Virus record (IMG/VR): IMGVR_UViG_3300045931_000083
Span: 1 to 40,903 of that record
Length of the DNA: 40,903 bases
Strand: one strand, 5' to 3'
From: a virus
The notes under the pieces were generated by a model. It was given only the letters and a program-made list of their open reading frames with translations. It was not told where the DNA came from and did no database searches. Positions within the stretch are counted from its first letter, which is position 1, and each line of letters begins with the position of its first letter. Both the position numbers and the translations under genes were made by a program. Shown piece by piece: positions 2,132-28,751 of this stretch.

Positions 2132-5100
2132 CTATGGAGCGACTCGCAGCGCGACAAGACGGTAATTAGTTACCTCCCGCGCCGACGATTTTGACGACTG
2201 CTTGAGAACATATGTTTGGTTGTCGTTGGTCTGGTCGGTGAGCGCGACGACTTGCGCCGCCCCGTTGATGTCATCGCCCGGTATCAGTTTGTACTTACAG
2301 TTTCCGACCGGCTCGCTGGTCCCGTATTTGACGATGATAACTTCCAAGGTCTGCCCCTTGTCGCATTTGTAGGAAAACGTTCCGATCAGAACGACGCCGC
2401 CCCGTCGCTTAACCGAAACCTGGGCATTGTTCGCCGCAACGGCGCCGCTCATGTACCGGGTCGAAACTTCATTAGATTTGAAATGCTTGGTCTGAATCTT
2501 GTCGGCCTGGACCGTGCCTGAATAAATCTTGTCGGCTTTGATGGCGCCGCTATCGATGTTGGTCGCCTTGATCGTCAGGTCGGCGATCTTGTCGCCGGTC
2601 AGCTTGAGCCCGCCGATGTGCCGGGTTTCGATCGCGAGGCTGGCGAGGTGTGTCGCCTTCACCTCACCGGCCTTGATGTTCTTGGCGTAGATCGAGTCGA
2701 TCGCCATCTTCGACGCGACAATCTCCGCGTCCTGAATCTCGTTCCGGGTGATGGCGAAGTCCTTGATCGCCGCCGTCGTCACCGCGTCGAGGCCGATCTT
2801 TCCCTCGGTGACCGCGCCGGGTCCGAGCTTGTCGGAGGTGACCGCGCCGGGCCCGAGCTTCGAGCCGTTGACCGCGCCGGGGGCGATCTTGGTGCCATCG
2901 ATGATGCCGTTCTGGATCGCGGCGGCGCTCACCGCGCCGACCGCCAGATGGCCGACGGTGATCTGGCCGGCGGCGATCTGCGCCGATTGCAGGACCTGAA
3001 TCGCGGCCCGCTTGATCTTGACGATCCCGCCCTCGATCACGAACGGGAATTGCCGCGTGGTCAGATTGCCGATCGCCACCTGATCGATATCGAGCAGTGC
3101 GCCAGGCACGCCAGCTGAATCGACGAACAGATAAAAGCCCGCCGACTTGTTGGCGTTGGCGCCGGTGCCATAGACCGTGATCCGGTAAAGGTTCTGGAAC
3201 CCGGGCGGCGTCGGCAGCACCTTCTCGGTGATCACCGCGCCGCTGGCGCTGCCGGCATTGATAAGCTCCTGCAGGGCGTCGGCGAACGCCTCGATGAAAA
3301 TCGGCGTCTCTGGCGTGGTCACCGTGATCCAGTTGGTCCACACAAAGTCGCGGGTCGGGACGGCGCTAGCGAAGATCGCCCGCACCACATAGACGATGCC
3401 GCTGGTCAGATTCTTGGTGAGATCGTAGACGCCAGCCTCGGGCGCCGCCATTTCATCCTGGACAATCAGCGGCCCGATCGACGAGCTCATCCGCACTTCG
3501 AATTTGATGGTCTGGACATCGTCGAGATCGGTGCCCGTCCAGGTCAGGTGAATCGCCGGCCGATCGATGCTGGAACCGCCATCGATGATCTTCGGCACCG
3601 CCTTGAAATTGAGGATCGATTGCGGTGGCGCCCGATCGATGATCTGGACGCTGTCGGGCACGTCGACTTCGTCGGTATCCGGCGACCAATCGTAGTCCGA
3701 TGGATCGACTTCCTGAATTCCCACCACCTGGTCGCCGTCATTGCGATCGGCGATCGACTCCACCCGGAACAGCTTGTCGATGTAGCCATTGCGCTCGCTG
3801 GTCCAGGAGACGAAATCGAGCGGCTCGAGGATGTAGGCTTCGGGCGGCAGCACGATCACGTGGCGCCGGAAGCGCCGCGATTCCTTCATGATCGCGCCCG
3901 ATAGCCGCTGCGCCTGGAACTTGTCCCAGACATGGGCGTAGGTCACGTCGGCGACGTTCTCGCGTCCGTCGTCAGCCTCGACATAAGCGGTCTTGCGGCG
4001 CGGCGGCAGCGCCTTTTCCATCCAGCCGTCGCCAGGTGAAATGAAGGTGGCGTCGACGCCGTTGACGGTGTCGTCGAGCGTCGGGAACATCTTGAAATCG
4101 TGCTCATCGGTCATCAACAGCGCGGCGTCGGTGAACGACAGGACCGGGGCGCCGGAGGAGACGTGCGGGCCGACCTTCGGCTTGTAAATCCCGCCGCAAT
4201 CGGCGATCCGGCCGTTGCAGCATTTGAGCAGTTCGGCGATCTCCGCCCCGGCGTCAGTGTCCCACCAGATTTCGGCGCCGCAGCGATACTGGGCATTGGA
4301 CGTGCCGTCACGGTTGGTGACGATGACGTTGCATTCGTTGATCGCGGCAGCCCAGGGCGCGAACGGCAATTGCGCCGGTGAGACGGTTTGCGGGCCGTAG
4401 ACCCATTCGCCGCGATAGCGAATGCCGCGCATTATGTTGTAGATCACCACCATCGGATTGTTGCTGAACTCGTAGGTCGCGGGCTGGTCCCAGCGGTGCG
4501 TCCCGGAGCCGCCGATCGAAGAATCCTTGGTCGGGTTGTAGAGCTTGATCCCGTTCAGCACGAACAGGCATTCCGGCCGGCCACCCTGAAACAGCTTCTC
4601 GGAATAGCGGCTGGTGACCACCGCATAGGCGACGCCGAAGCCGATATGGCGCCCGTCCCAGTCGCGCGGCCCGGTCGGGAATTTCGAGGACAGGTAATCG
4701 TCGGAGCTGGTCTGGTCGCCCATGTGGACCTTGATCCACAAGTAATCGATGCCGTTTTTGCGATATTGCGGCACCGCGAAGCCGCGACCGCTTGAGCCGC
4801 TCTGCCAGGTGATCTTCTCGCCGTTGACGTAGATGTCGAGGACGTTGCTGATCGGCAGGTCGGACAGACGGATGATCTGGACCAGGTAGGCATGGGGCAC
4901 CTTGTTCGTCTCGCCCCAGTGCCGCAGATACACCGCCGAGCCGGCGGTCGCCCATCTCCCGACGATCATCCCGCGCGAGGTTGAATCGCCGACCGTCATC
5001 GTCGCCTGGACGCCGCCCGGCTTGTTGGCGCCGACGCCGAGCAAATCGTCAGGCTTGCCCGCCAGCGCCTTGGAAATGTAGGTCAGGCCGAACCCGGCGG

Positions 5101-24190: not shown

Positions 24191-24220
24191 TTGAAAGAAG
24201 GGATAAAAGTGCTACATAAT
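24191..24220 (+). promoter_or_regulatory. possible promoter of the BrnT-BrnA-XRE cassette
   Basis: TTGAAA (24191-24196) is followed at 16-18 bases by TACATA/CATAAT (24213-24220), which abuts the BrnT start. If used, transcription would start almost at the coding region, perhaps from the second ATG at 24225. AGAAGGG at 24196-24202 may serve as a distant ribosome-binding site instead. The call is weak. Confidence 0.3.
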
Positions 24221-24488
24221 GAGCATGACGGGACGGATCATCTGGGACGACGGGAACTGGCCGAAATGCGGCAAGCACGGTGTGTCGAAAGCCGAGATCG
24301 GGCATGTGCTGACCGACCCCGCGACCGTCTTTCGTGATGATCCGTACGTCGGCGAGCCGCGCTTTCGCGCCATCGGCACCACGCCCGCAGGTCGGCGCGT
24401 CTTCGTCGTGTTTGCGATGCCCGGCGACGCTTATCGCCCGATCAGCGCCCGCTACATGCACAAGAAGGAATTCGACAGCTATGTCTAG
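24219..24488 (+). CDS. brnT: BrnT-family toxin
   Basis: The 89-residue protein matches BrnT: HGVSKAEIGHVLTDPATVF, then EPRFRAIGTTPAGRRVFVVF and RPISARYMHKKEFDSY at the end. BrnT is a RelE-like ribonuclease toxin that cuts RNA and stops growth. The downstream BrnA-like gene overlaps it by eight bases, the standard order. The cassette lies on the opposite strand to the surrounding early genes, so it looks like an independent insertion ('moron') with its own promoter. It could stabilise the prophage or act in phage exclusion. Those roles are inference. Confidence 0.88.
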   Translation: MSMTGRIIWDDGNWPKCGKHGVSKAEIGHVLTDPATVFRDDPYVGEPRFRAIGTTPAGRRVFVVFAMPGDAYRPISARYMHKKEFDSYV

Positions 24489-24891
24489 GAAATGGCCGAG
24501 TTTCGAGACCAGGGATCTCGACATGGAATCCGACAAGGGCTTCGCTGAGCTCAATCGGCGCTGGGACAAGTACAACCGCGAAATGCAAACCCTGATCGAT
24601 GCCAGGACCGTCCACCAGGACGAAGACGGCTGGTGGGTCGACAACGCGACCGGCAAGCTGATCGGCGAAGACCCGCAGGATGTGCGCCCACTGACGCCCA
24701 AGGATGTCTCTGAATTCATGCCTCGCGCCGAATTCGAAGCCCGCCGCAGGGCGGGCCGGCCACCGCTTGGCGACAAGGCCAGACAGCATGTCTCGCTACG
24801 GCTCGATGCAGAAGTGCTCGCCAAGTTCAAGGCGACGGGCAAGGGTTGGCAGGGCCGCATCAACGAGGCGCTCAGAAAAGCGAAGGTCTGA
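24481..24891 (+). CDS. brnA: BrnA-family antitoxin
   Basis: The ATG at 24481 overlaps the BrnT stop and gives 136 residues, longer than many BrnA proteins. The C-terminal ribbon-helix-helix DNA-binding part is clear: HVSLRLDAEVLAKFKATGKG then WQGRINEALRKAKV. The middle, SEFMPRAEFEARRRAGRPP, also fits BrnA. The N-terminal 60 residues should wrap the toxin. BrnA neutralises BrnT and represses the operon with it. Confidence 0.85.
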   Translation: MSRKWPSFETRDLDMESDKGFAELNRRWDKYNREMQTLIDARTVHQDEDGWWVDNATGKLIGEDPQDVRPLTPKDVSEFMPRAEFEARRRAGRPPLGDKARQHVSLRLDAEVLAKFKATGKGWQGRINEALRKAKV

Positions 24892-24893
24892 AC

Positions 24894-25208
24894 GTGGGAG
24901 AGGCCGTGGAAGACGCCGAGGATCTCGAAGCGATCCGCCTTTTCGAAAAAAGGCTCGCCGCCGGCGAGGAAGAGCTGATCCCGTCCGAGGTCGTCAACAG
25001 GCTCATCGACGGCCCCGAAAGCCGCATGCGCATCTGGCGCGACTACCGCGGCCTGTCCCTCGCCGATCTCGCCGAGCAGACCGGCTTCGGCACCGCCTAT
25101 CTCCACCAGATCGAGACCGGCAAGAAGAATGGCTCTGTCGAGGCGCTGACCAAGATCGCCGCGGCGCTCAAGGTCGACGTCGACGACATCCTGCCGCGCA
25201 AGGAGTGA
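24894..25208 (+). CDS. XRE-family HTH protein, third gene of the toxin-antitoxin cassette
   Basis: The start is taken as GTG 24894, two bases after the BrnA stop, with AAGG upstream; GTG 24906 is an alternative. The 104-residue product has an N-terminal antitoxin-like region (FEKRLAAGEEELIPSEVVNR, LIDGPESRMRIWRDYRG). A lambda-type helix-turn-helix follows: LSLADLAEQTGFGTAYLHQI ETGKKNG. It resembles HigA/HipB-like antitoxins that come with RelE-type toxins, but here it follows a complete BrnTA pair. It may be a second regulator of the cassette or the leftover of another module. It converges on the HNH gene at 25220 with only 11 bases between. Confidence 0.82.
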   Translation: MGEAVEDAEDLEAIRLFEKRLAAGEEELIPSEVVNRLIDGPESRMRIWRDYRGLSLADLAEQTGFGTAYLHQIETGKKNGSVEALTKIAAALKVDVDDILPRKE

Positions 25209-25219
25209 AGCCAGCGTCA

Positions 25220-25816
25220 TCAGGCCGCCTCCTCGCCGAAGAGCCGGAGCTCGCGCGGTGGCACCCGCGCCAGTGTCGCCGCGGCCGCCAACAAGTCGGG
25301 CGGAATGTCGACGTGCTTCCAGTATTTGCGCGCGAGAATCTTGTTCACGGTATTTCGATTGAGTCCGACGACTGCACCGATCTCCGAGCCGATCAGCCCG
25401 CGAGCTCTCATACGAAAGATTTCGATGACCGTGGCCTCGTTAATCTTCGCTTTGTTATGTGCGACGCCAAGTCGATCGCGGCCGTGACGCCGACGGTCGG
25501 TGGCGTTTTCGGAGCCGCTGCCCCAAGCAAGATTGCAGGCTCGATTGTTCGATCTGTCGCCGTCTAGATGCCGGGCTTCATTCCTGCCGGTCGGCGGCGC
25601 TCCGTGGAACGCCTCACACACCAAGCGATGAACGAGAAATCCGACTATTCGACCGTCAATGGTCGTTGAAAAGTGCCAATATCCGTTGCCCGCTGGCGAT
25701 CCCCGCATCACCCGCGGTTTGTGGCCATTGCCCCGCACGACATTGCGCCGGATACGACCTTCCGACGATACCTCGTAACCGGTGAGCCTGGTGATCGCGC
25801 GCCAAATCTCTGTCAT
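25220..25816 (-). CDS. HNH homing-type endonuclease inserted at the end of the resolvase gene
   Basis: The ATG at 25816 overlaps the resolvase stop (ATGA) and gives 198 residues. The N-terminal NUMOD4-like part reads MTEIWRAITRLTGYEVSSEG RIRR. The HNH core is FLVHRLVCEAFHG with ARHLDGDRSNNRACNLAWGS. A helix-turn-helix follows (IGAVVGLNRNTVNKILARKY). The last 20 residues, ATLARVPPRELRLFGEEAA, closely mirror the resolvase C-terminus, TLARTPPNELHLYGEVA. Base composition is lower in GC than neighbouring genes. It is probably a selfish element that entered the 3' end of the resolvase gene. Confidence 0.87.
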   Translation of the reverse strand: MTEIWRAITRLTGYEVSSEGRIRRNVVRGNGHKPRVMRGSPAGNGYWHFSTTIDGRIVGFLVHRLVCEAFHGAPPTGRNEARHLDGDRSNNRACNLAWGSGSENATDRRRHGRDRLGVAHNKAKINEATVIEIFRMRARGLIGSEIGAVVGLNRNTVNKILARKYWKHVDIPPDLLAAAATLARVPPRELRLFGEEAA

Positions 25817-26388
25817 GCTACTTCCCCGTAAAGGTGGAGTTCGTTCGGCGGAGTCCTCGCCAGCGTCACCGATGCAAATGACCAAACGGCGCACGCATCC
25901 GCCCTGTCGTCGTCGTCGACGGTACGCTCGAAGTAGCCGAGCACCTGGCACCGGCGGACGATCGCGGCCTTCCTGGCCGCCCTGCCCTCCGGCTTCGCCG
26001 AGCCGAGGAAATGCTTGGTCACCGTAAAGACGTTGGCGTTTTCGCAACGTACGCCGTGCCCCGAGCACATCGCCTCGACGATGAGATGAAAGCCGACGGT
26101 GCTCGGGATGGACCCCGCCCCGATCTTCAGGAGCGTCGCCAGGGTGAGCGGCGCCTCCTTCACGACCATGAACGGCTTCTGTCTTGGCCATCTGTCCGGA
26201 TCGCGCGGGTCGCCACCAGAGAGCAGCAGATCCATCAGCTTGATCAGGTTGAAGGCCTGCGCGGCGAGGCCGGCGCCGGGCTTGCCGAGCGTGACGGTGT
26301 AGCTCTGCGGGATCGTGCCGGGCACGCCGACGGCGACGCCGAGCTTGCGTCCGACGTCGAGGGCAATGAGGAGCCGATCCCGCTGCAT
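25813..26388 (-). CDS. RuvC-like Holliday junction resolvase
   Basis: The ATG at 26388 gives 191 residues. Acidic residues fit the RuvC/RNase H fold: Asp11 in LLIALDVGRKLGVAVG, Glu78 in FMVVKEAPL and the Asp pair in DDRADACAVW near 161-164. The Lys-rich ARKAAIVRR segment before it is also typical. Such phage resolvases cut branched DNA during replication and packaging. Its last codons are mirrored in the following HNH gene, see findings. It is part of the leftward early operon and follows the GapR-like gene by seven bases. Confidence 0.85.
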   Translation of the reverse strand: MQRDRLLIALDVGRKLGVAVGVPGTIPQSYTVTLGKPGAGLAAQAFNLIKLMDLLLSGGDPRDPDRWPRQKPFMVVKEAPLTLATLLKIGAGSIPSTVGFHLIVEAMCSGHGVRCENANVFTVTKHFLGSAKPEGRAARKAAIVRRCQVLGYFERTVDDDDRADACAVWSFASVTLARTPPNELHLYGEVA

Positions 26389-26395
26389 TTGCGCC

Positions 26396-26752
26396 CTATG
26401 CCGCTTCGCCGAGATCGAGCGCGGCTTGCCCGAGGGGAAGTTCGGCCAGGTCGCCGAGCGCCAGCCGAATCTGGTCGTATGTCTCCCTCTCCTCCTCCTC
26501 AAGCTCCTCGCGGAGATCCTCGATCTTCGCCTCGAGCTTCCGGCGCGCGACGTTCTTCTTGAGGAGCTTCTTCGGGATGCCGGCTTCCTTCGCCTCGTCG
26601 TAGACCTCGGCGATGTTCTGGCGCAGCGACTTGCAGTGCGCCATGTGCTTGCCGGTCGCCGAGGCGATGTCTTCGTCGATCTCCTCGATCCGCGCGACGT
26701 AGTCCTTCACCTCCTCAGGGTCGAATCCGTTTCCTTTGGCTGGCTTGGTCAT
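26396..26752 (-). CDS. GapR-like (DUF2312-like) coiled-coil protein
   Basis: The ATG at 26752 follows GGAGGAAAGGAG, so it is preferred over the ATG seven codons upstream, which lies within that site. The 118-residue product has an N-terminal DPEEVKDYVARIEEIDEDIA and then NIAEVYDEAKEAGIPKKLLK KNVARRKLE. This is the arrangement of the GapR/DUF2312 family: 'ERIE' helix, 'DVYAEAKGNGFD' loop and a basic helix. A C-terminal acidic coiled coil extends beyond it. Cellular GapR binds overtwisted DNA ahead of forks in alphaproteobacteria. The match is suggestive and not full length. Confidence 0.6.
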   Translation of the reverse strand: MTKPAKGNGFDPEEVKDYVARIEEIDEDIASATGKHMAHCKSLRQNIAEVYDEAKEAGIPKKLLKKNVARRKLEAKIEDLREELEEEERETYDQIRLALGDLAELPLGQAALDLGEAA

Positions 26753-27402: not shown

Positions 27403-27900
27403 TTACTTTCCATCGGCAATGTCGGTAAGATGTTTGCTCAGGTCACCACCAGCACGGCGGCGCGCCACATCAGCAGCTTTCATTTTGATTTCTGCAGCAG
27501 CGCTTGCCCGAGCCGCATTGCGCATTTTGATTAGCGCGTCTTCGTACAAGTCGTTCACGGTGGCGTATTTGCTATCGACCTTTTCATAGTCCGCATCGTC
27601 CGCCTCTTCCCCGTCATCGGCATCGTCGTACCTTGGCCGTGTCAGATGCTCCGGCACCGTGTACCCATCGATCGAAAACAGATCCGGTCCCTGCTTACGC
27701 GGCTGCTTCTCCCAAGCCCGGTTTGCCGCCTCCATCCAGGCACCCATCATCAGTGCCTCGCCCTTCAGCGGGTCTTTCTTGACGGCGGCCCAAACGTGGT
27801 TTCTGAATCCCTCCCTGCTACCGCCTAGATCTCTTCGGAGATCGAGGTATTGCTGGCGCTGAATGGCAAGAAATTCTGAAATGTTTTCGCCCGTGCTCAT
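27403..27900 (-). CDS. unknown early protein downstream of ParB-like gene
   Basis: The 165-residue protein has a helical N-terminus (MSTGENISEFLAIQRQQYLD LRRDLGG), FRNHVWAAVKKDPLKGEAL, a very acidic middle (DDADDGEEADDADYE) and an Ala/Lys-rich helical C-terminus. No known catalytic motif or membrane segment is visible. The ATG at 27900 overlaps the ParB-like stop, so the two genes are probably translated together and may work together. Codon use is less GC-rich than in the structural genes. Confidence 0.6.
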   Translation of the reverse strand: MSTGENISEFLAIQRQQYLDLRRDLGGSREGFRNHVWAAVKKDPLKGEALMMGAWMEAANRAWEKQPRKQGPDLFSIDGYTVPEHLTRPRYDDADDGEEADDADYEKVDSKYATVNDLYEDALIKMRNAARASAAAEIKMKAADVARRRAGGDLSKHLTDIADGK

Positions 27901-28751
27901 GATTCTCCTTCCCCCTTTAGCTGGGCCAATAAACGCCCGATGTTTCTTGCACCATCGAGGATGTCCGTGCCCGCTGGATCGATGCGCAAACGATCGATAA
28001 TCGCGCTACGGAATTGCTCATCGCCAAGGCGATCGAGCACCTCGCGAGCGAAGTCGGGATTGCTCCACGCCAAGCACCCGCGATAGGCGGACTCCGACAA
28101 TCGCAAGAGGGTTTCGCGCTTGTTCGCTTCAGCGGCGTCGGCTTCAGCCTTGCGCTGAACGAGCGCCGCATAGGCCTCGGTCAACGACATGGGCTCAGGC
28201 ACCAAGTCGGCTAAATCCGGAGCTTCGGTGCGGAGACGTTCGAGTTTGGCCTGATCGGACTGCGCCGCTTGTTCGCTGGCGATGACATCGGCGAGCGCCT
28301 TGTCGAAGGGAATAGCACCAGCAAACACTGCCTCTGCGGTGTCGTAAGAGTGACGCAGAATGCGGCGAGCATCCCGTAATCGCGTCTTCGAAACCTCAAC
28401 AGGTTCTGTTGAGGTTTTGCCACGTCCGCCACGATGGGTTGGGTTTGGATAAGCGAAGGCGTACGCTATGGCGCGCTGACCGGCATTGAGATGCCTGCGC
28501 TCGACATTAGTGGCGAGAATGTACTCGACCACGTCCTCGCCGTTTATTTCTTCGAAGCGCGGTTCAACGCCCGCGATCTCACATGCTTTGAGCCGGTTCC
28601 GTCCGTCGATCAGAACGTCGCCCTTGAGCATGATCGGCTGAAACAGGCCGTTCGTCGCAATGCTCTCCGCGAGTTCGGCGAGCTCGTGCTCCGCCATCAT
28701 CGGAAACCGATCGGCAAGCGGATGAACGGATGTGAAAGGCTTCGCGCTCAC
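27897..28751 (-). CDS. ParB/Srx-domain protein
   Basis: The 284-residue protein starts with a ParB-type N-terminal domain: VHPLADRFPMM, ELAELAESIATNGLFQPIML, then LIDGRNRLKACEIAGVEP. It continues with VVEYILATNVERRHLNAGQR AIAYAF, the usual ParB box II/HTH region. The C-terminal half is helical and Ala/Glu-rich. In phages such proteins act as DNA-binding regulators, nucleases or CTP-dependent clamps; there is no ParA partner here. It sits in the early operon between two unknown genes. Confidence 0.82.
   Translation of the reverse strand: MSAKPFTSVHPLADRFPMMAEHELAELAESIATNGLFQPIMLKGDVLIDGRNRLKACEIAGVEPRFEEINGEDVVEYILATNVERRHLNAGQRAIAYAFAYPNPTHRGGRGKTSTEPVEVSKTRLRDARRILRHSYDTAEAVFAGAIPFDKALADVIASEQAAQSDQAKLERLRTEAPDLADLVPEPMSLTEAYAALVQRKAEADAAEANKRETLLRLSESAYRGCLAWSNPDFAREVLDRLGDEQFRSAIIDRLRIDPAGTDILDGARNIGRLLAQLKGEGES

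Follow-up and report, generated by a model that had tools for sequence, protein, structure and literature searches.

The genes considered here occupy positions 25220 to 26388 of an IMG/VR virus record (IMGVR_UViG_3300045931_000083) of 40,903 bases, without Ns, the whole of which we refer to as the window. Both genes are on the minus strand. The first (26388..25813; 191 aa) encodes a RuvC-like resolvase and is complete; it matches phrog_159 (E=1e-4), although only partially, has no match in Pfam, and in an alignment with 11 relatives keeps the catalytic-type invariant residues D11, E78, D159 and D164. The second (25816..25220; 198 aa) encodes a putative homing endonuclease, similar to phrog_59 over its full length (E=1.3e-36). 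Its HNH_3 nuclease domain (25502..25636; PF13392, E=1.6e-10) scores 40.9 bits against a cut-off of 24.8, whereas the NUMOD4 motif (25745..25810; PF07463, E=8.7e-4, 19.9 bits against 23.4) and the helix-turn-helix region (25328..25441; HTH_23, PF13384, E=0.0012) fall below theirs. The resolvase stop and the HNH start overlap (ATGA). A scan with the window resolvase alone found no relatives in viral contigs or phages, and alignment-based scans were needed; the neighboring gene at 27897-28751 gave no relatives.

The two proteins share a tail. The resolvase ends ASVTLARTPPNELHLYGEVA and the HNH protein ends AAATLARVPPRELRLFGEEAA; when the last 20 resolvase codons ('tail1') are aligned with the corresponding 20 near the end of the HNH gene (AAATLARVPPRELRLFGEEA, within 'tail2'), 13 residues are identical, and of the codons 4 are identical, 9 differ synonymously and 7 nonsynonymously. 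Nucleotide identity is 65%, and 11 of the 21 differences are at third positions. This resemblance is not due to chance. When the 2.5 kb downstream of 108 distinct resolvases was searched for a second copy of the tail, the BLOSUM62 score was 66 in the window, 42 at a second locus (L132) that proves to be a true case, and 38 or less everywhere else. In a screen of 98 homing-endonuclease genes the window tail again scored 66, and the next was 35, if matches between parts of endonucleases and one mis-framed ORF (together the high scores of loci L255, L237 and L246) are set aside. A possible second tail (LFGEEQAA) in L025, the locus with the nearest resolvase, scored 32, which is background, and its codons overlap a Shine-Dalgarno-like stretch. 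None of the relatives of the HNH protein that were examined carries the tail—those complete at the C-terminus end near KHV, instead—and no endonuclease examined carries it away from a resolvase.

Which of the tails is the original? Uninvaded relatives of the resolvase have ends such as ASVTLARVPPREIRLFGQERAA (L025, whose resolvase is 58% identical), AAATLARVPPKELVLFNEGAAA (L116, a bacterial genome locus) and ASAHHGRTPPRELRLFGERAG (L031). A profile built from 11 such tails scores tail2 at 46.8 bits and tail1 at 31.3, and tail2 is the closer to every one of the 11. Tail1 departs from the family at the nearly invariant D170 (WSF for WDW). No near-identical uninvaded sibling of the window phage was found, the nearest being the 58% identical resolvase, and no donor for tail1 was found, either; a degenerate DNA pattern for tail2 gave no hits.

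Composition points in the same direction. GC3 and codon adaptation switch twice, from 0.89 and 0.73 in the resolvase body, to 0.61 and 0.41 in codons 164-191 and 0.66 and 0.50 in the HNH body, and then to 0.92 and 0.68-0.76 in the HNH tail; GC3 is 0.61-0.65 for tail1 and 0.90-0.92 for tail2. Codons 168-191 fit the HNH body better than the phage core by 11.3 bits, a value reached by 0 of 2021 windows in eight core genes, although this segment was chosen after the tails had been seen. Tail2, in contrast, scores -4.7 bits and fits the core. So tail1 (25813..25887, codons 168-191 and the stop, with an approximate left border between codons 164 and 172) and the HNH body behave as one imported unit, and tail2 (25220..25285, AAATLARVPPRELRLFGEEAA and the stop) as native sequence, as are the resolvase codons up to about 167. 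Tail1 also holds the start region of the HNH gene (GGGGAAG, then ATG).

Because no close uninvaded sibling of the window phage was found, we looked for the same arrangement elsewhere. In L132, also from IMG/VR, the stop of a related resolvase overlaps the start of an HNH-AP2 gene, whose Pfam matches are below cut-off, and here an uninvaded sibling exists: L142 (resolvase 95% identical, flanks 90–96%). L142 reads ..CAAGCAACC TACGCGCCGAAAT ACCAGTCGATGCCGTTGGGGGAGTTGTTCCGGTGA. The L132 resolvase leaves this sequence after CAAGCAACC for a new tail (YQSRPLGELF against YQSMPLGELF), in which 2 of 10 codons are identical, 7 are changed synonymously and 1 nonsynonymously, whereas the HNH-AP2 gene ends in ACCAGTCGATGCCGTTGGGGGAGTTGTTC, the original end, in the same frame. 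The fused copy is identical to the sibling's original over the readable stretch; a single N (an assembly join) lies inside this second tail, but the fused junction comes before it. The new tail and the endonuclease of L132 also share low GC3 (0.42 and 0.46, against 0.74 for the resolvase body). At another resolvase (L004 7110-7263, on the same contig as L047) a 51-aa AP2-like remnant overlaps the stop (ATGA) and is possibly a decayed endonuclease at the same place, but it has no Pfam match and we do not count it.

A mirror-image version occurs in named phages. When both flanks of 116 endonuclease genes were screened, only Mycobacterium phage McGuire (92) scored higher than the window (66); a score of 55 in L290 looked like low complexity. 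In McGuire, a NUMOD4-HNH_3-HTH gene (gp71), of the same domain architecture as that of the window (where the NUMOD4 and HTH matches are below cut-off), sits near the 5' end of cas4. The original 5' end remains upstream as a stub, with 14 of 17 codons identical to those of uninvaded BeesKnees and the rest synonymous, and a diverged 5' copy, overlapping the HNH 3' end in another frame, restores cas4 (of 17 codons, 6 identical, 9 synonymous and 2 nonsynonymous). McGuire, SarFire and IgnatiusPatJac carry the same 641-nt block (99.7–99.8% identical) with identical borders, while the adjacent 62 nt on the left follow each backbone: those of SarFire are 100% identical to uninvaded Zephyr but 85.5% to McGuire. 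All 15 records with this HNH, representing 13 phages isolated on M. smegmatis, carry the identical 89-nt diverged end, and the two other records found are at most 75% identical to it. A mobile unit made of nuclease plus replacement end predicts exactly this linkage. The nearest 5' end (75%) belongs to gene 63 of Mycobacterium phage Chanagan (PP763602.1; L307 1192-1995), and a lineage of this kind may be the donor. The arrangement is nonetheless rare in the screen, accounting for about 3 of the 116 endonuclease loci, and genome searches for HNH_3 and NUMOD4 added no further case.

We think it likely, then, that the unit from about 25887 to about 25290—tail1 plus the HNH body—is a free-standing homing-endonuclease element that entered the resolvase gene near its 3' end. 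The HNH enzyme is proposed to cut an uninvaded resolvase gene just past the conserved DDxRADA motif; the upstream broken end is extended by copying from a phage that already carries the element, acquiring a diverged but protein-conserving resolvase end and the HNH gene; and the new sequence is then joined to the recipient's remaining 3' end, which becomes the C-terminus of the nuclease, in frame. The resolvase stays whole, the cut site is presumably no longer recognized, and the ATGA overlap keeps the genes coupled. Nuclease activity, protection by tail1 and the repair route are inferred, from what is established for homing endonucleases (PMC2988022); the exact cut site and function of the restored proteins are inferred, too. 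The initial annotation proposed such a homing element, with a recoded end that restores the resolvase and hides the cut site and with the original end left fused to the nuclease, and noted the difference in codon usage between the tails. The codon observation is correct and the interpretation is supported, with the qualification that 'recoded' most likely means a diverged end from another phage lineage, kept by selection on the protein, rather than recoding as such.

ALTERNATIVES. Of the other explanations, all of them unlikely, passive mosaicism survives best. Phages are mosaic, and two with different resolvase ends might have recombined around an HNH gene that happened to lie there and plays no part in its own spread. 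A BrnT/BrnA toxin-antitoxin pair plus an Xre-type regulator lies antisense directly behind the HNH tail (24219-25208, plus strand), and a BrnTA pair also lies antisense at the resolvase stop in L025 (about 4090-4900), so this junction seems to accept such cassettes. Passive recombination remains possible for the window alone, but what speaks against it is recurrence with two endonuclease architectures, in two genes and at both gene ends, the constant borders of the cas4 element in different backbones, and insertion next to conserved catalytic or cysteine-bearing motifs. Scarcely more doubtful is ordinary local duplication, in which the HNH gene entered without a tail and the resolvase's own 3' end was duplicated and then drifted. 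Two tails of 65% identity are what an old duplication could leave, but drift does not explain why the copy on the resolvase took on the codon usage of the HNH body while the fused copy kept that of the phage, nor why in L132 one copy is unchanged over the readable stretch while the other differs at 8 of 10 codons, 7 of them silently, nor why the diverged end in mycobacteriophages is identical in 13 phages and travels with the HNH.

Less likely still, the HNH protein might have gained a resolvase-type C-terminal peptide that binds a replication protein such as the sliding clamp. Of the 108 resolvases, 77 have a hydrophobic residue followed by F in the last 30 residues (LFGE, GGLF, SPLF), which is perhaps reminiscent of clamp-binding motifs. 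The other NUMOD4-HNH relatives examined lack such a tail, however, the foreign codon usage of the resolvase's own end is left unexplained, and the cas4 case adds no peptide to the nuclease in the same frame. An intein or self-splicing intron is very improbable, although such elements carry HNH genes and sit at conserved sites of phage genes: the resolvase frame ends in a stop codon (25813-25815) before the HNH body, which excludes a continuous intein precursor, the resolvase is complete without splicing, and no Rfam family matches 25000-26500 at E<=1, nor L132 or the locus L291 at gathering scores.

The closest precedent is found in fungal mitochondria. In Glomus atp6, atp9, cox2 and nad3, and in Allomyces macrogynus atp6, mobile ORFs (mORFs) for endonucleases are inserted near the 3' end of a conserved gene; a foreign, largely synonymously diverged C-terminus completes the gene, and the native C-terminus lies beyond the endonuclease and matches uninvaded relatives (PMC3630166). 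Those nucleases are LAGLIDADG or GIY-YIG enzymes, and the native end is not expressed in atp6 and cox2. In the window, the nuclease is of the HNH_3 kind, in a virus, and the native end is fused in frame to it; the element works like an mORF but is not filed as one. The free-standing seg and mob genes of T4-type phages also spread with co-conversion of flanking sequence, but they are described as lying between genes and cutting hundreds to thousands of bp away, or as splitting a gene, as mobE does in Aeh1 nrdA (PMC2988022), whereas the element here sits within the gene and carries its own replacement end. In logic only, the arrangement resembles the synthetic home-and-rescue (HomeR) gene drive, an engineered Cas9 system in Drosophila in which a nuclease element inserted in a target gene also preserves the target's function (PMC7968924).

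We found no description of such elements in phages in the literature searched (including PMC2988022 and PMC10448857), but since many subscription papers lay outside that search, this is weak evidence of novelty. It seems probable that phages harbor an unrecognized class of free-standing HNH homing elements, natural home-and-rescue drives that insert inside conserved genes and carry a diverged replacement for the gene end they cut off, the 3' end in resolvases and the 5' end in cas4. Such a class spans two HNH architectures (NUMOD4-HNH and HNH-AP2) and at least two target genes, and would provide a further route by which gene ends move between phage lineages. It may also explain other odd HNH insertions. 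In mycobacteriophage ShiLan, an out-of-frame HNH element lies inside a DNA methylase gene, without splicing, and the first 11 residues of the insert resemble the 11 residues after the insertion site (PMC11855218); the host gene is read through the whole insert, and the authors considered the similarity as a possible intron signature, but it may be the same phenomenon.

Annotation is affected, too, since the original gene end is read as part of a nuclease or as a separate small gene, such as McGuire gp72. In Pseudomonas phage ZY21 (OM140839.1; L121 2501-3594), a related HNH gene directly precedes a RuvC gene with a 4-nt overlap, so HNH genes sit on either side of phage resolvases.
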